In this document: positions 8,927-21,251 of the stretch, piece after piece
How the letters are laid out: every line of letters starts with the position of its first letter
Numbering within the stretch: the first letter of the stretch is position 1
DNA from: Luteolibacter sp.
GTDB taxonomy: Bacteria > Verrucomicrobiota > Verrucomicrobiia > Verrucomicrobiales > Akkermansiaceae
Direction of reading: 5' to 3'
DNA: 32,628 bases
Assembly: GCA_030828305.1 (NCBI GenBank)
Contig: JAURCU010000018.1
Location: forward strand, 1 to 32,628
Made by a program: the position numbers and the translations under genes
Notes under the pieces: model-generated
What the model was told of the DNA's origin: nothing
Databases searched by the model: none
The model's input: the letters and a program-made list of their open reading frames with translations, nothing else

Positions 8927-9361
8927 TCAATCCTCATCATTGATCTTGTCGAGGGTGACCCCGGGATCCACCAGAAGCCAGTCACCACCTGGAACGGCTT
9001 GCAGTCCTTGTGTGGGTCGGCTCCATTCCCAGATCCAGGCGCTTTCGGCCTCGTCCTCGGCATTCTGCACCATGGTTCGTAGCCGGCGGTATTCGGGACC
9101 TTCAAACTCATCGAGCGCATCGATCTTTTCGGCAGGCACTTCGTAAAGATCACCGAACACTTTTGCGCCGTTCTCATCGAGGACCAGACCCGGATACCAG
9201 TCGATCTCGTAGAGGTGGCCGTTGACCGCCGCGGGGCCGATCCACTTGCAGTCCTCCATGCGAAAATTGTTGGACCCCCCCTTGCGCAGGGTGCCGTAGA
9301 CGAAGACCCGCGCCGGAGGCGAGTCTGGTGCTTCGTTCTTCGTTGCTCGTTCTTCGCTCAT
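8927..9361 (-). CDS. gamma-glutamylcyclotransferase (AIG2/GGCT) family protein
   Basis: 144 aa; VFVYGTLRKGGSNNFRM and ALDEFEGPEYRR motifs. Confidence 0.88.
   Translation of the reverse strand: MSEERATKNEAPDSPPARVFVYGTLRKGGSNNFRMEDCKWIGPAAVNGHLYEIDWYPGLVLDENGAKVFGDLYEVPAEKIDALDEFEGPEYRRLRTMVQNAEDEAESAWIWEWSRPTQGLQAVPGGDWLLVDPGVTLDKINDED
9332..9359. repeat. degenerate heptanucleotide tandem repeat overlapping the 5' end of the GGCT gene
   Basis: TTCGTTC TTCGTTG CTCGTTC TTCGCTC (four 7-nt units). Confidence 0.7.
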
Positions 9362-10435: not shown

Positions 10436-12103
10436 ATGTCCCCCAGTCAATCGTTCCTTCCCACTGACTTTGCCCATCCCTATGAGATTGCCGCGAAGTA
10501 TTCCAAGAGCGTGCTCTACATCTCCTGCGAGTTCGCCATCGATCAGAGCTTCAAGATCTATTCGGGTGGTCTCGGCTTCCTCGCCGGCTCGCACATGCGC
10601 TCCGCCCATGACCTAAAGCAGAACCTTTGTGGTGTCGGCATCCTCTGGACCTATGGTTATTATAACCAGGCACGTGGTGAAAACCGCGAGCTTGCAGTGC
10701 AGTTCACCCGCAAGGAATATGCGTTCCTGCAGGACACCGGCCTGCGTTTCACTGTGCCCGTTCACGGCCATCCGGTGGTAGTGAAGGCCATGTTTCTGCC
10801 GGGTGAGGTCTTTGGCACCGTGCCGATGTTCTTTTTGAGCACCGACATCGAGGAAAACGATCCGCTGTCGCGTGCCATCACCCATCGGCTCTACGACCAA
10901 GACCCGCTGCGCCGCATTGCCCAGTATGTCATTCTCGGTGGAGGAGCAGCGCGCCTGATGGATGAACTCGGTGTGGAACCCGAGGTATGGCATCTCAACG
11001 AGGCCCACGGTTTGTCCGCGGCCTTCCATCTGTATCGCAAGTATGGCGGTCTGAATGGCGTCATGGAGCGTCTGGTGTTCACCACCCATACCCCCGAGGA
11101 AGCTGGTAACGAGGTGCACGATTTCCATATCCTGAAGGACTTCTCCTTCTTCGGGGATCTCAATGAAGACGAAGTGCGTGGGGCCACCGGCATCCAAGGC
11201 TCCGACTTCAACCATTCTCTGGCGGCCCTGCGCATGGCAAGGAAGGCCAACGGTGTATCGAAGTTGCACGGTGAGGTTTCCCGCAGGATGTGGGGTGGCT
11301 ACGATCAGATCTGTGAGATCGATCACATCACCAATGCTCAGAACAAGAAATACTGGGCCGAGCGCGGTCTCGAACATGCCCGCCAACAGGGTGACGTTGA
11401 GCAATTGCGTCAGCGCAAGCGCGAGCTCAAGGAGCGACTTTTCCGGATTGTCGCAGACCAGACCGGAAAGCTCTTTGATCCCGAGGTGCTTACCATTGTC
11501 TGGGCACGCCGCTTTGCAGGTTACAAACGACCCGATCTGATCACCCGCGACATCAAGCGCTTTCGCGCCATGCTCGCCTGCACCAAGCACCCAGTGCAGA
11601 TCTTATGGGCTGGCAAGCCTTTCCCCTTTGACTATGGCGCTATCGACCAATTCAACCACCTCATTCATATCACCCGCGATCACCCCAATGCCGGGGTACT
11701 GGTGGGCTACGAACTTGAACTCTCACGCCAGCTCAAGACGGGCTCTGACATCTGGCTCAACAATCCCGTCGTCACCTGCGAGGCCTCCGGGACCTCGGGT
11801 ATGACCGCAGCGATGAATGCCTCGGTCAATCTTTCCACCTTCGATGGTTGGGTCTGTGAATTCGCTCAAGACGGCGACAACTGCTTCATTATTCCCGAGG
11901 CGGATCCTTCACTGGGACACGAGGAGCGTGACCAAAGTGACACGAACGGCTTCTACGACTTGCTCGAAAACAAGGTGCTGCCCGCCTACTACGATGAACC
12001 CAAGGAGTGGGACCGTGTCGTGCTCAACTCGATGAACGACGTCGCACCCTACTTTGATTCCGACCGCATGGCGGATGAGTATTACGGGAAGATGTATGCG
12101 TAG
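10436..12103 (+). CDS. alpha-glucan (glycogen/starch) phosphorylase family GT35 homolog, short form, PLP-lysine position substituted
   Basis: 555 aa; YISCEFAIDQSFKIYSGGLGFLAGSHMRSAHDL, VWHLNEAHGLSAAF, FTTHTPEEAGNEVHDF, WARRFAGYKRPDLI, GSDIWLNNPVVTCEASGTSGMTAAMNASVNLSTFDGW. Confidence 0.88.
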   Translation: MSPSQSFLPTDFAHPYEIAAKYSKSVLYISCEFAIDQSFKIYSGGLGFLAGSHMRSAHDLKQNLCGVGILWTYGYYNQARGENRELAVQFTRKEYAFLQDTGLRFTVPVHGHPVVVKAMFLPGEVFGTVPMFFLSTDIEENDPLSRAITHRLYDQDPLRRIAQYVILGGGAARLMDELGVEPEVWHLNEAHGLSAAFHLYRKYGGLNGVMERLVFTTHTPEEAGNEVHDFHILKDFSFFGDLNEDEVRGATGIQGSDFNHSLAALRMARKANGVSKLHGEVSRRMWGGYDQICEIDHITNAQNKKYWAERGLEHARQQGDVEQLRQRKRELKERLFRIVADQTGKLFDPEVLTIVWARRFAGYKRPDLITRDIKRFRAMLACTKHPVQILWAGKPFPFDYGAIDQFNHLIHITRDHPNAGVLVGYELELSRQLKTGSDIWLNNPVVTCEASGTSGMTAAMNASVNLSTFDGWVCEFAQDGDNCFIIPEADPSLGHEERDQSDTNGFYDLLENKVLPAYYDEPKEWDRVVLNSMNDVAPYFDSDRMADEYYGKMYA

Positions 12104-12118
12104 GCCGCCATGCGGCCT
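12102..12118. repeat. GC-rich hairpin overlapping the phosphorylase TAG stop
   Basis: AGGCCGC-CAT-GCGGCCT perfect 7-bp stem starting inside TAG (12101-12103). Confidence 0.65.
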
Positions 12119-12123
12119 GTCCC

Positions 12124-12162
12124 TCGAAGCCTCACCTCCGGTCAGGTGCGAGAGGGCTTCGA
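12124..12162. repeat. nested inverted repeat in the convergent phosphorylase/ymdB spacer
   Basis: Outer stem TCGAAGCC...GGCTTCGA, inner stem CACCT...AGGTG. Confidence 0.6.
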
Positions 12163-15519: not shown

Positions 15520-15549
15520 GCGGTTCATCTCATGCTTCTTCGGGTCAAA

Positions 15550-15583
15550 AACCAGGAACCAGAAACAGGCTGCGCAGCAGCCT
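15550..15583 (-). repeat. heptamer array plus hairpin overlapping the TAG stop of the glcD-like gene (module copy A)
   Basis: CCAGGAA CCAGAAA CAGG followed by AGGCTGC-GCA-GCAGCCT; the last bases are part of the minus-strand TAG (15582-15584). Confidence 0.7.
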
Positions 15584-16961
15584 ACTCCAGAAACTTCCCG
15601 GGATTCAAAATCCCCTTGGGATCCAGAGCTTTTTTGATGTCCTCATGCAACCCGTAGCCGACTTCGCCGAGTGCGTCGTGCAGCCATCTCTTCTTGGCGA
15701 GTCCCACACCGTGCTCCCCTGTGATCGCTCCCCCTTGTTCCAGCACCCAGTTGAAAAGCATGTCGAGGGCTCTGTTGGCCTTTTCGCGAACCAAGGGATT
15801 GTCGTAGTCACCGACCATCAGGTTGGTGTGGATGTTGCCATCCCCGGCGTGACCGAAGCAGGCAATGTCGATACCGGTCTGGGTTTGCAGCTGACCGGCG
15901 AATTCGATGAGTTCCACCAGTTTTGAGCGTGGCACCACGATGTCCTCGTTGAGCTTGGTCATGCCCGTATCGCGCAGGGAGTAGGAGAACTCACGGCGCT
16001 GCTGCCAGAGCTCCCCGCAACTTTGTTCGTCCAGAGCACGGGTGAGTTTAGTCGCGCCAAGCTGCTGCAGCAGGGCATCTAGCTCATCAAGTTCATGGGC
16101 AATGGCTGCCGGGCGCCCGTCAATCTCGAGCATCAAGTGGGCGTCGCCTGGCGGGAAAGCGTCTTCACCCAGGCGCTTGCGTGCGGCTTCAAGGGTGAAG
16201 CCATCGGTGATCTCCAAGGCGGAAGGAAGATGGCCAGTATTGAGAATCGCCTGCACGGCCGCGGCCGCCATCGAAAAGTCGGGAAAGATGGCTGTGAGCA
16301 TGGAGCGGCTCCCGGGCTTGGGAATCAGGCGCAGAGTCGCTTCGGTGACCACGCCCAGCATGCCCTCGGAGCCGGTGAAGAGTCCGCAGAGATCAAAGCC
16401 CGTCTTATTCTTGTGCAGGCGACCTCCCGTACGCAGAACCTTGCCGTCGTGGAGCACCACTTCCAGACCCAGCACATAGTGGCGGGTGACGCCATACTTG
16501 AGACAGCGCGGGCCCCCTGCGTTGGTGGCGATGTTGCCGCCAATCGAGCACTCTTTGAGGGAGGCCGGGTCGGGCGGATACATCCAGCCGGCCTTTTCGG
16601 CAGCCTCTTGAAGCTCACCGGTGATGACCCCGGGTTGGACCACCGCGACTCCATCCTCGGGATGGATGCCGAGAATGCGATTCATGCGCGCGGTGGAGAG
16701 GGCGATGCCGCCTAATACGGGCACACAGCCACCCACATAGCCAACCCCGGCACCACGGGTGGTCACCGCAATATCGCGTTCATGGGCGAACTTGAGCACC
16801 TTGACAACGTCCGCGGTGGACTCGGCGAAGACCACCATGTCGGGCGGATGACTCGCGGTCCATTTGTCGCTGGAATGTTCCTCAATGACCGAGTTGCGCA
16901 CCGACACCTTGTCTGGCCCGATCCGTTTTTCGAGTTCCTTGGGCCAGTCGGAATTGGACAT
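15582..16961 (-). CDS. FAD-binding oxidase, GlcD/D-lactate dehydrogenase-like
   Basis: 459 aa; VVFAESTADVVKVLKFAHERDIAVTTRGAGVGYVGGCVPVLGGIAL, GGNIATNAGGPRCLKYGVTRHYVLGLEVVL, GNIHTNLMVGDYDNP, GEHGVGLAKKRWL. Confidence 0.92.
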   Translation of the reverse strand: MSNSDWPKELEKRIGPDKVSVRNSVIEEHSSDKWTASHPPDMVVFAESTADVVKVLKFAHERDIAVTTRGAGVGYVGGCVPVLGGIALSTARMNRILGIHPEDGVAVVQPGVITGELQEAAEKAGWMYPPDPASLKECSIGGNIATNAGGPRCLKYGVTRHYVLGLEVVLHDGKVLRTGGRLHKNKTGFDLCGLFTGSEGMLGVVTEATLRLIPKPGSRSMLTAIFPDFSMAAAAVQAILNTGHLPSALEITDGFTLEAARKRLGEDAFPPGDAHLMLEIDGRPAAIAHELDELDALLQQLGATKLTRALDEQSCGELWQQRREFSYSLRDTGMTKLNEDIVVPRSKLVELIEFAGQLQTQTGIDIACFGHAGDGNIHTNLMVGDYDNPLVREKANRALDMLFNWVLEQGGAITGEHGVGLAKKRWLHDALGEVGYGLHEDIKKALDPKGILNPGKFLE

Positions 16962-17080
16962 GGCCGAGTATCCTGCTGTCGGGTCCGGCTTTCAAGCATC
17001 CACTTCCTGTTGCATGCGGGTAAGAGTGGAATGCGTCATCCCTATTGCCATGCTACGAGGCCTTGTGTAGAAGGTGGCCG

Positions 17081-17713
17081 ATGAAATCACTGACTTTGCC
17101 CCTCACCGCAGCCTTTGCCTTCTACTCTGCCGTCATGGCTGAGGAGGAGTTTGTCCCGCTGTTTAACGGCAAATCCCTCGAGCAGTGGGAAAATACTTAC
17201 AAACATGGTGAGGCCAAGGTTGTTGATGGTGAGATTCAACTCATCGGCAATAAGAAGTTCTTCCTTTGCACCAAGAAGCAATACGCCGACTTTATCTTTG
17301 AGGTTGAAATCCACCTACCCGAGGGCAAAGCCAATTCCGGCGTGATGTTTCGCGCCCACAAAGAGCCCAACAAGGTCTTTGGTTATCAGGCCGAATGTGA
17401 TGGTTCGGATCGCATGTGGTCGGGCGGGCTCTACGATGAAGGTCGCCGTGGTTGGCTGCATCCCAAGAAGCCGAATGACTCCGAGTCCGGTTTGGCTTTC
17501 AAGAATGGCCCGGGTAAGGCCTTCAAGCGCAATGACTGGAACCAGTACCGAATCGAGTGCCGCGGCGACAAGATCAAGATCTTCGTCAACGACATACTGT
17601 GCACAGAATTCACCGACAACGTGGACGCGCAAGGCTACATCGGCCTCCAGCATCATGGTGAAAAGGGCCAGACCTACCGCTTCCGCAACCCGCGGATCAA
17701 GGAATTCAAATGA
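17081..17713 (+). CDS. DUF1080 (3-keto-disaccharide hydrolase/LamG-like) secreted protein
   Basis: MKSLTLPLTAAFAFYSAVMAEEEFVPLFNGKSLEQWEN...GKANSGVMFRAHKEPNKVFGYQAECDGS...WNQYRIECRGDKIKIFVNDILCTEFTDN...GYIGLQHHGEKGQTYRFRNPRIKEFK. Confidence 0.92.
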   Translation: MKSLTLPLTAAFAFYSAVMAEEEFVPLFNGKSLEQWENTYKHGEAKVVDGEIQLIGNKKFFLCTKKQYADFIFEVEIHLPEGKANSGVMFRAHKEPNKVFGYQAECDGSDRMWSGGLYDEGRRGWLHPKKPNDSESGLAFKNGPGKAFKRNDWNQYRIECRGDKIKIFVNDILCTEFTDNVDAQGYIGLQHHGEKGQTYRFRNPRIKEFK

Positions 17714-17729
17714 GCAGCGTGGCCGCCAA

Positions 17730-17768
17730 CTAGGAACCAAGAACCAGAAACAGGCCGCTACGCTGCCT
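17730..17768 (-). repeat. heptamer array plus hairpin overlapping the TAG stop of the AKR gene (module copy B)
   Basis: CTAGGAA CCAAGAA CCAGAAA CAGG followed by AGGCCGC-TAC-GCTGCCT (one mismatch), overlapping the minus-strand TAG (17767-17769). Confidence 0.75.
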
Positions 17769-18885
17769 ACCAATCGTCACCCAAGCCGTATTGCTGGGCG
17801 AGTTCCAGAAGCTCCGGACGCATGGGCCATTCATCGGGGCGTTCACTGCTCTCATGACGCTTGCTCGCACCCTTGAGCATCATGCAGCCGGTGTTGTCAC
17901 CGATGGCGCGGATCTTCGCCACTTCCTCGTCGGTAAAGCGGACGTCAGGCATGGCGGCGAACTCGGCGATTTTGTCCTCGATGAGCCGCGCGTCCCGGCC
18001 GGCTTCCTGGATGAAAGTGGGCACCACGCAAGCAACCGCCGGGTGGCTCAAGTTCCAGATACAGGCGAGTTGGAGAAGGGTGAGTTTGTATTGCTCGACG
18101 ATGGGCATCATCTTCTCGGCCTTTTCCATGCCATGCTCCACCCACCCTTCCGGGCGGTAGGTGCGGTGGTCACCGGACTTGAATTCATGGCTGGGTAAGC
18201 CCAAGTCTCCATGGAAGACGCCGCCGTAGTCGACCACGCGGGTCATCACCTTCACGCCGTGTTTTTCGCAGGCGGGGAGTGTCAGGCCGACAGGCCAGGG
18301 TTCGAGTGGGTTGAGGATGAGCATGGACCAGTCGATCAAATCACTGAAGCTCTCCAGGCAGTAGATCAGATCGAGTGAGAAGCCGTTGGCAGGGCCGGGG
18401 GCAATGCCCAGACGCTGGGTGAGGCCGGCCGCCTTGGCAGACTCCATCGCCTTCCATAGAGGCTCGCTGGTGTAGCCAATCTCGTCGGGGTTGTGCAGCA
18501 TCAAGAGATCGAACTGATCGACGCCGCAGCGCTCGAGCTCCTTGCCGGCGGCCATCTTGATGAACTGCTCGTAGCCCTCAGGACCGCGTAGTTCGGGATC
18601 GGTGAAGCGGGGATACCCGCGGCTGCCTTGGCGTTGGCCGTTGTAGAAGTCGTGGCCAATCATGCCGACCAAAGAGTAAGTGTCGCGCCCAATGCCCGCG
18701 AGCGCCTTGCCAAGCAGTTCGTCGGCCTTGCCGTTGCCGTAGACGTCTGAGGTGATGAAGGTGCGGATGCCTTTTTCGTAGGCGGTCTGGATGCAGCCGA
18801 TGTAGCGCTCCTCGCTGAGGGTTTCGCCGAAGTGCATGAAGCGTCCGCCGCTCCAGGTGCCGTATGCAGTTGTGGTTGGTTCCAT
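17767..18885 (-). CDS. aldo/keto reductase
   Basis: 372 aa; FITSDVYGNGKADELLGKAL, QFDLLMLHNPDEIGY, IDWSMLILNPLEPWPVGLTLPACEKHGVKVMTR, LACIWNLSHPAVACVVPTF. Confidence 0.88.
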   Translation of the reverse strand: MEPTTTAYGTWSGGRFMHFGETLSEERYIGCIQTAYEKGIRTFITSDVYGNGKADELLGKALAGIGRDTYSLVGMIGHDFYNGQRQGSRGYPRFTDPELRGPEGYEQFIKMAAGKELERCGVDQFDLLMLHNPDEIGYTSEPLWKAMESAKAAGLTQRLGIAPGPANGFSLDLIYCLESFSDLIDWSMLILNPLEPWPVGLTLPACEKHGVKVMTRVVDYGGVFHGDLGLPSHEFKSGDHRTYRPEGWVEHGMEKAEKMMPIVEQYKLTLLQLACIWNLSHPAVACVVPTFIQEAGRDARLIEDKIAEFAAMPDVRFTDEEVAKIRAIGDNTGCMMLKGASKRHESSERPDEWPMRPELLELAQQYGLGDDW

Positions 18886-18951
18886 GAGTCGTGAATCAAT
18901 GAGTAGGAGTGCTGTGGACCCCGGTCAAGGGGATCGGGAGAAATGCACAAA

Positions 18952-19560
18952 TCATCGTACGAAAGGATTGGTTCTGGCTTCCTGACCGATGGTGGTTTCT
19001 GGCCCGTGTCCGGAGAGCACGCGTGTTTCCGGGGGGAGGGTGAGCAGGTGCTCTTGGATGCCAGAGATCAGCGTCTCGGTGCTGCCGCCAGGTAGGTCGG
19101 TGCGACCGACGGAGCCGGCAAAGAGGGTGTCGCCAGCAAACACAACACCCTCGTCCTTGAAGTAGAAGGTGATGCTATCTGGGGAATGGCCGGGCACGTG
19201 GGCTACCCGGATGGGTTGTCCACAGATGACGATGGGAGCTGCCGGGTCAATGCGCTCATCCACCCCATATTTGTGAACCACGATGGGCATGCCCCAGTTG
19301 CGTGCAGCAGTTTCGAGAGTGAGATCGGTGGAGTGGTGGGCGAAGGCGCTTATTTTTGCTCCCAGAGCCTGCAGTTTGGCGGCCCCCTGAACATGATCGT
19401 AGTGCTGATGGGTCAGGAGCACCTCATCGACACGCACGCCCTTGGAGAGGATCCAGTCGCTGATGGCTTCGGGCGCATCGATCACGAAGTTGCCCTCAGG
19501 GGTTTCCACGAGGTAGCCATTGGTTTGTACCATGCCGCCAGTGTAGCAGGAGATCTTCAT
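18952..19560 (-). CDS. MBL-fold metallohydrolase (glyoxalase II-like)
   Basis: LLTHQHYDHVQGA, VAHVPGHSPDSITFY, VFAGDTLFAGSVGRTDLPGG, VLSGHGPETTIGQEARTNPF; start 19560 within ORF to 19596. Confidence 0.92.
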   Translation of the reverse strand: MKISCYTGGMVQTNGYLVETPEGNFVIDAPEAISDWILSKGVRVDEVLLTHQHYDHVQGAAKLQALGAKISAFAHHSTDLTLETAARNWGMPIVVHKYGVDERIDPAAPIVICGQPIRVAHVPGHSPDSITFYFKDEGVVFAGDTLFAGSVGRTDLPGGSTETLISGIQEHLLTLPPETRVLSGHGPETTIGQEARTNPFVR

Positions 19561-19605
19561 GGGGGTGAGTGTCCGTGGCCTTGGCGGGAGATTCAAGGGC
19601 GGTGT

Positions 19606-19657
19606 GTTCTTGGTTTCTGTTTCTTGGTTCCAACCAGGAACCAGGAACTAGGAATCC
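19606..19657 (-). repeat. opposed heptamer arrays forming a hairpin downstream of the SSS symporter stop (module copy C)
   Basis: TTCTTGGTTTCTGTTTCTTGGTTCC-AACCA-GGAACCAGGAACTAGGAATCC; core stem TGGTTCC/GGAACCA. Confidence 0.75.
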
Positions 19658-19658
19658 A

Positions 19659-21251
19659 TCAGCCCGCGAAGCTGGCGTAGATGGCGATCACCATCACCAG
19701 CAAGGCAAGGCCAGCCCATTTGGCACCTTTCCATGGCGAGAGATCGATGGGGGTATCGGTCTCGAGTTTCCAGGCCTCCTTGCGCGGGCTGACGGTTCCT
19801 GCCACCAGCAGCAAGATTACCAGCAGGCCAAAGACGATGCCGATGAAGTGGAAACCATGGATGCCAGCGTTCGCGATGGCCTCATCGAAAGCGGGGATGA
19901 AATAGCCGAGCGAAATGATGAGGATACCGGCAATCATGGCAATGGAAGCGGCTCGACTCGGCACACGCGGGTGCAGGATGCCGACCAAAACCACCGCGAA
20001 GATGGGAATGAAGTAGATGGCATTCATCTTCTGCAGGTAGCCGAAGATAGTGTCCTGGCCGATCAGGAGCGGAGCGCCAATCATGGCGGCGATGGCCACG
20101 CTGACCACGAACCATTTGGCGGCGCGCACGCTTTGTTGCTCGCTTCCCGCGGGATTGATCACGTGTTTGTAAAGACCGATGGAAAAGAGTGCCGAGGTGC
20201 TGTTGAGTGCAGCGTTGAACGAGCTGAGAATGGCGCCCATCATCACGGCGGCAAAGAAGCCGGTGAGGTGCGAGGGAAGCACGTCCTTGACCAGCATGCC
20301 GTAGGCTTGGTCATTGGGGATGTCTTGGTTCGCATACATCTGGAAGGCGATCAGGCCGGGCAGGACGAGGTAGAGCGGACCGAGAAGTTTGAGAGTTCCG
20401 GTGAGCAGCACGCCCTTCTGGCCCTCCGCCAGACTGGAGGCGCCAAAGGTGCGTTGGATAATCTGCTGATTGGTGCACCAGTAGAAGAGATTGAGCAGCG
20501 CCACGCCGGTAAAGAGGGTGGAGAAGGGGACTTCCGAGCCTTTCGCGCCAATGGAATTGAGCCGCTCGGGCTGGGTCTCCTTGAGCGCGTTCCAGCCAGC
20601 GGCGATGCCTTCGCCATCTCCCACCGCGTTGATCGCATGGTAGGCGACTAACATGCCGCCAACAAGCAGACCCACGCCGTTGATGGTGTCGAGCACGGCC
20701 AGGGTGCGCAGGCCTCCAAAGCGGGCATAGCACATGCCGAGGACGCCGATGATCACCACTGTTGCGCGAAGTAGGGTGTTGTAATCCTCGATGCCGGTGA
20801 GCGACTGGATGTCGATGATGCTGATGAGCCCCACCGCTCCCGTGTAGAGTATGAGCGGAATCAGCAGGAAGGTGTAGGCAATCAGAAAGATGGTGTTGGC
20901 AACGGTTTGTGCGCTGCGATCGTAGCGCTTCTCGAGAAATTCGGGCACGGTGGTAATGCCCGCCCTGAGAAACTTTGGCAAAAAGAACAGCGCCATGACC
21001 ACAAGTGCCACCACGGCTACAACCTCCCATGCCATCACGCTCAGGCCATGGGCATAGGCCGAGCCGTTGAGGCCGACCATCTGCTCGGTCGAGAGATTGG
21101 TGAGTAGTAGTGAGCCGGCAATGATGGGAAAGCTCAGCGAGCGGCCCCCGAGGAAGAAGCCGTCGGCTGATTTTTTTTCATCACGGCGCGTGATGAAGAT
21201 GGTCAGGCCGGCGGCCAAGAGCGTGAAGGCCAGAAAGGAGATCAAGGTCAT
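19659..21251 (-). CDS. sodium:solute (SSS/SLC5, sugar) symporter
   Basis: 530 aa, multi-TM; SADGFFLGGRSLSFPIIAGSLLLTNLSTEQMVGLNGSAYAHGLSVMAWE...VPEFLEKRYDRSAQT...GGLRTLAVLDTING. Confidence 0.93.
   Translation of the reverse strand: MTLISFLAFTLLAAGLTIFITRRDEKKSADGFFLGGRSLSFPIIAGSLLLTNLSTEQMVGLNGSAYAHGLSVMAWEVVAVVALVVMALFFLPKFLRAGITTVPEFLEKRYDRSAQTVANTIFLIAYTFLLIPLILYTGAVGLISIIDIQSLTGIEDYNTLLRATVVIIGVLGMCYARFGGLRTLAVLDTINGVGLLVGGMLVAYHAINAVGDGEGIAAGWNALKETQPERLNSIGAKGSEVPFSTLFTGVALLNLFYWCTNQQIIQRTFGASSLAEGQKGVLLTGTLKLLGPLYLVLPGLIAFQMYANQDIPNDQAYGMLVKDVLPSHLTGFFAAVMMGAILSSFNAALNSTSALFSIGLYKHVINPAGSEQQSVRAAKWFVVSVAIAAMIGAPLLIGQDTIFGYLQKMNAIYFIPIFAVVLVGILHPRVPSRAASIAMIAGILIISLGYFIPAFDEAIANAGIHGFHFIGIVFGLLVILLLVAGTVSPRKEAWKLETDTPIDLSPWKGAKWAGLALLVMVIAIYASFAG

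Follow-up and report, generated by a model that had tools for sequence, protein, structure and literature searches.

Heptamer arrays and stop-codon hairpins at gene 3' ends in a Luteolibacter genome

The dispersed repeats closest in kind to the element considered here are the GGGAATC heptamers of Xanthomonas, of which there are about 186 copies, lying near stop codons on the sense strand and mostly transcribed (PMC4692102). The GGGAATC and GGGGA(C/T)T repeats of Xanthomonas and Nostoc also include about 70 convergent (inverted) pairs, and their loci are kept in sister species with changes in length (PMC4692102). The present element was found in a stretch of 32,628 nt from Luteolibacter sp. (contig JAURCU010000018.1, assembly GCA_030828305.1), called the window below, and consists of short tandem arrays of a 7-nt unit that are placed soon after stop codons and in many copies joined to a hairpin overlapping the stop codon. 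As with the Xanthomonas type, there are many intergenic arrays of one unit, inverted pairs are frequent and are kept with length changes in sister species, and the preference for positions within 50 nt of a sense-strand stop has its counterpart in the 32 of 37 arrays that begin within 20 nt of one. Unlike the G-rich, G-quadruplex-forming unit of Xanthomonas, the unit here, which is GTTCYTR in the sense of the upstream gene and GTNCYTN in its broader form, has no G-tract. Moreover, no stop-overlapping hairpin has been described for the Xanthomonas and Nostoc repeats, whose hosts belong to another phylum.

Cyanobacterial short tandemly repeated repetitive (STRR) heptamers are likewise dispersed and intergenic with a 7-nt period; only this period and the intergenic position are common to both, the unit sequences being probably different and the present host verrucomicrobial. 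The TAACTGA repeats of Beggiatoaceae, cyanobacteria and Bacteroidetes resemble the arrays in being dispersed heptamers with a patchy distribution, length changes in 7-nt steps and assembly breaks, although in Beggiatoaceae they adjoin start codons on the upstream side, in forward sense and without a hairpin (PMC4679880). The paired GTTGCTYN octamers and other tandem repeats of Geobacter metallireducens are also opposite-strand pairs of short tandem units at variable distance, but their unit is 8 nt long, they were taken by the authors as binding sites of global regulators, and no link to stop codons is reported in the available part of that source (PMC2700814).

A further comparison is with repetitive extragenic palindromes (REPs), most of which are found no more than 20 bp from the 3' end of a gene, where they often supply the TAG stop (PMC3733652). 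Like the GTAG class of REPs, the bacterial interspersed mosaic elements (BIMEs) and the REP doublets forming hairpins (REPINs), the present element comprises short 3'-end hairpins between convergent or codirectional genes, in mosaic and paired arrangements (PMC3733652). Palindromes do stand by gene 3' ends, but there is no common palindrome, family consensus stem or GTAG/CGTC tag, all three stop codons are used, a heptamer array lies on the 3' side, and this genome has no REP-associated tyrosine transposase (RAYT). A search of open-licence full texts brought up no account in which heptamers are coupled to a stop-overlapping hairpin whose sequence varies. What appears to be new is the tight pairing of the two, similar 7-nt repeats being known elsewhere.

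Three sites in the window carry the arrays (15546-15566, 17728-17751 and 19606-19654), and all are placed soon after minus-strand stops, at distances of 15, 15 and 4 nt, respectively. Array A (15546-15566, minus strand) reads GTTTCTGGTTCCTGGTTTTTG in the sense of its upstream gene, which encodes a GlcD-like FAD-linked oxidase. It is preceded by a hairpin (15567-15584, minus strand) in which a T is followed by the arm AGGCTGC, the loop tgc and the arm GCAGCCT, with the first stem bases coming from the stop codon TAG at 15582-15584; an identical copy of this hairpin is found elsewhere in the same genome (G000:C99:25731-25748). Array B (17728-17751, minus strand), which follows an aldo/keto reductase gene, reads GTTTCTGGTTCTTGGTTCCTAGTT in the sense of that gene, and its hairpin, TAGGCAGCgtaGCGGCCT (17752-17769, minus strand), takes in the stop codon TAG at 17767-17769 and has one A.G mismatch in the stem, although folding of the single copy gives a different pairing. 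Array C runs in both orientations: the right arm (19632-19654, minus strand) begins 4 nt past the stop codon (19659-19661) of a sodium:solute symporter (SSF) gene, and the left arm (19606-19631, GTTC on the plus strand) lies upstream of a gene with a metallo-beta-lactamase fold. The two arms form an inverted repeat with a predicted fold of -27.6 kcal/mol.

The pattern AACCAGGAACCAG, with up to two mismatches, has six matches in the window against 0.76 expected, every one of them within the three array sites, and six or more matches were obtained in none of 100 dinucleotide-preserving shuffles. No match to any RNA family in Rfam was found in the window at the gathering score. An earlier note on this DNA had proposed a dispersed 3'-end element following three mutually unrelated genes, and both the arrays and their position after the stops have been borne out, with refined borders. 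Its consensus, about CCAGGAA/TTCCTGG, is replaced by the unit given above, and the coupling to hairpins that it suggested holds for copies A and B, where the hairpin lies between stop and array, but not for copy C, which has none.

Similarity of ObgE places the host among the verrucomicrobia, near Akkermansiaceae/Verrucomicrobiaceae. The wider behaviour of the element was followed in the host assembly (G000; 2.39 Mb in 181 contigs, 90.5% completeness) using a pattern of two units with one mismatch allowed. This gave 154 matches, against 14 for the reversed pattern used as a control, which is an imperfect one in genomes G015 and G039, where long AACCAAG arrays match it too. The sample comprised stretches around the matches together with array-blind stretches, with genes called by a simple codon-usage script. 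Among the 62 arrays analysed 59 are intergenic, and 40 of these 59 have a same-strand stop codon upstream; a separate count gave 39 of 57 arrays. Of 37 usable arrays, 32 begin no more than 20 nt past such a stop, where uniform placement predicts 9.6, and the commonest distance is 15 nt. Several of the 19 other intergenic arrays are, as judged by eye, directly preceded by a stop codon and hairpin, and their genes may have escaped the caller. TAG stops are enriched at array-bearing ends (19/46 vs 45/246, p = 0.0015). The abundance and the enrichment near stop codons on which the earlier note had let its proposal depend were thus both found.

What separates stop and array typically forms a perfectly paired stem closed by a loop of three bases, in a hairpin of 15-18 nt. 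The 5' arm most often begins with the stop codon's second base (13 of the 30 hairpins), such that the 3' arm ends in CT with TAG, in TC or TT with TGA and in TT with TAA. A hairpin stands immediately before 30 of 58 arrays, compared with 3.3 in shuffled sequence (maximum 11). Although 27 of the 30 stems are distinct, the arms are complementary in each copy, and when arms are swapped between copies the inner pairing falls from 6.0 to 3.9 of 6. At array-bearing gene ends the hairpin is present in 31 of 46 cases, against 21 of 246 other ends (Fisher p = 4.5e-17). Folding energies computed for the first 24 nt have medians of -8.2 vs -1.7 kcal/mol. The 246 non-array ends were not selected for hairpins; eight of them have a strong stop-hairpin, and in seven of these eight it is directly followed by GTNCYT, in the form of GTCCCTC, GTGCTTC or GTTCTTA, against 3 of the 238 ends lacking a hairpin. 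Because of this coupling, hairpin and heptamer are regarded as one unit, and GTNCYTN is the better notation for the heptamer. The full form is seen at a convergent gene pair (L177), in the order stop, hairpin, array, core, inverted array, hairpin and stop.

Two further window features belong here. A related copy that the earlier note had overlooked, in addition to its three, lies at 12101-12126 (plus strand), where the stop-overlapping hairpin TAGGCCGCCATGCGGCCT is followed by GTCCCTCG, of the GTCCCTC type. A degenerate GTNCYTN-type array, GTGCTTC GTTCTTC GTTGCTC GTTCTTC, is found without a hairpin at 9325-9356 (plus strand). Elsewhere in the genome, GTGCTTC/GTCCCTC heptamer palindromes surround a common core, CTATATTCTTC, at G000:C120:14773-14789 and G000:C126:26287-26303. 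A shared hairpin consensus was considered and discarded, with TAGGCNGCNNNGCNGCCT having only six copies in the host genome and almost none elsewhere, as was a second element with the core TATATTCTTC, of which there are two copies only.

Within the genus, 5 of 73 genomes have any match and four are rich in them, namely that of the host, G015, G017 and G285; across the phylum matches occur sporadically, in 8 of 195 sampled genomes. In G015, G017 and G285 the element takes the form of array-core-inverted array palindromes, often 2-14 nt past a stop and usually without the stop-hairpin, and very long arrays occur in these sister species. Comparison of orthologous gaps (about 80% DNA identity) reveals that the number of units differs in 7-nt steps. 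The array between leuC and leuD, for instance, has 4.5 units in G285, 2.5 in G015 and none in G017. Past leuD, G285 has the core in the opposite orientation to that of G015 and G017, and a 17-nt GC hairpin that adjoins an array in G017 is missing from its G015 counterpart. The 7-nt steps, the loss, the core inversion and the hairpin gain are marks of a recombining mosaic repeat, and they agree with two of the possibilities listed in the earlier note, a recombination site and a passively amplified repeat. An empty-site comparison on GlcD orthologues found congeners without the array, at 72-78% protein identity too distant to show the junction.

Several other observations concern these genomes. 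An 8.8-kb four-gene block (L258, G015:C5, 337-9143) is 96% identical to its counterpart in the other species (L260, G017:C41), the rest of the L258 contig being 80-87% identical to another G017 contig, and both edges of the block coincide with heptamer elements; this reflects either segments exchanged at the arrays or contigs joined wrongly into a chimera. Between heptamer arrays of G015, G017 and G285 lies another dispersed sequence, conserved and about 100 bp long (TTTGACTCCGCTTCGCTCCGTCCAAGCGGTCAGGACTTT...), which has the look of a small mobile element in its own right (L036, L040, L042, L045, L188, L198 and L337). Related GTTCNTN arrays are found in distant genomes (L303 in G209, L286-L292 in G203 and L128 in a metagenome-assembled genome of Bacillota), and those of G203 start 6-20 nt past stops and have inverted counterparts close to the start codon that follows.

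The element is probably a small mosaic intergenic repeat of the heptamer-repeat/REP kind, transcribed as a hairpin in the 3' flank. Its usual unit is a stop codon, a perfect hairpin of 15-18 nt overlapping that stop, and GTTCYTR repeated two to six times along the transcribed strand, and it sometimes continues with a core, an inverted array and the hairpin of a convergent gene. This account builds on the observed position, orientation and hairpin coupling, on the variation of stems between copies, on the 7-nt length changes, and on what orthologous sites show in the way of losses, an inverted core and a gained hairpin. The element would be transcribed together with the upstream gene, so that the hairpin would fold in the RNA after departure of the terminating ribosome, and by analogy with REP hairpins it may mark or protect the end of the cistron. 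The heptamer run would mostly grow and shrink by slippage and recombine via its inverted arms. Some points weigh against this account. The orthologous genes of 30 congeners lack the array, and hence any benefit is dispensable; a perfect hairpin accompanies about half of the arrays and sister arrays stand at stops without one, from which it follows that the array does not depend on the hairpin. Sampling of the host genome centred on array-bearing stretches, with genes called by a simple script, and transcription and any effect on the mRNA in this organism are inferred only.

The main rival is a neutral or selfish repeat tolerated just past stops, with heptamers arising through 7-nt slippage and spreading by recombination or conversion, and hairpins as a functionless by-product of templated palindrome formation. 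Arrays would survive just past stop codons because they do the least harm there. This explanation is possible, although not the likelier one, and it accommodates the patchy distribution in genus and phylum, the changes in unit number and presence, and the very long sister arrays. It also accommodates the crowding of 13 arrays onto a single contig of 37.5 kb (G000:C64; L051, L052 and L053), where about one is expected (p = 5e-11). That contig includes arrays in the gaps of a prs-rplY-pth-ssb cluster (gene names after Pfam families), and local homogenisation of unit types by contig amounts to a trend only (p = 0.06). What neutrality alone leaves unexplained is the fixed 15-nt spacing, the stems that pair with the particular stop codon at hand, and the coupling of hairpin to heptamer in seven of eight cases. 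Since the stems vary and yet pair with whichever stop is present, the question becomes one of selection on RNA structure versus a palindrome-building mutational process. A further reading, considered rather unlikely, is a selected RNA module in which the stop codon lies within a hairpin strand followed by the array, the terminating ribosome would prevent the stem from pairing, and the stem would form upon its release.

Less probable again is a transcription terminator, in which the hairpin and a U/C-rich run would end transcription of the upstream gene. A GC hairpin and after it a strand in which T makes up about half of the bases, invariably oriented with the upstream gene, would suit this role in a genome where canonical terminators of hairpin and U-tract are rare (15 of 164 non-array ends), but the hairpin is followed by GTTCYTR with no U-tract directly after it, and L053 and L177 have a second, terminator-like hairpin past the array that does carry a U-tract. 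Arrays also stand between leuC and leuD and within the prs-rplY-pth-ssb cluster. Entire codirectional gaps are filled by the element, as between KefB and TsaD (55 nt), Def and a glutaredoxin-like gene (41 nt) and two sulfatase genes (49 nt), names that come from translations rather than a profile search, leaving little room for a promoter before TsaD, the glutaredoxin-like gene and the second sulfatase. Because intercistronic gaps such as that of KefB-TsaD are filled in this way, the element is not a general terminator, and this suggestion of the earlier note is not supported as a general role.

Mobilisation of a REP or REPIN by a RAYT (a Y1 HUH transposase) is very improbable and was rejected: palindromes abut stops, TAG is enriched, GTAG occurs in some copies including A and B, and REPs are known in the verrucomicrobial O. 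terrae (PMC3733652), but Y1_Tnp has no match in the host genome (90.5% complete), its presence in the other 40 of 41 sampled genomes of the genus, which mostly lack arrays, does not track the element, the stems are too varied (27/30 distinct), and TGA or TAA stops and non-GTAG starts are common. In G015 and G017 the stretches surrounding 14 Y1 genes contain no array. The host genome is the only one of the 41 without a Y1_Tnp gene.

The element unites two classes that are usually kept apart, heptamer arrays and REP-like hairpins, at a near-fixed spacing from the stop codon, and the sister genomes form a natural series in which repeats are gained, lost, inverted or altered in length. Were the selected RNA module to be true, the end of translation would be coupled to protection of the mRNA 3' boundary or to how the following gene is expressed, and the heptamers would serve as protein-binding sites.
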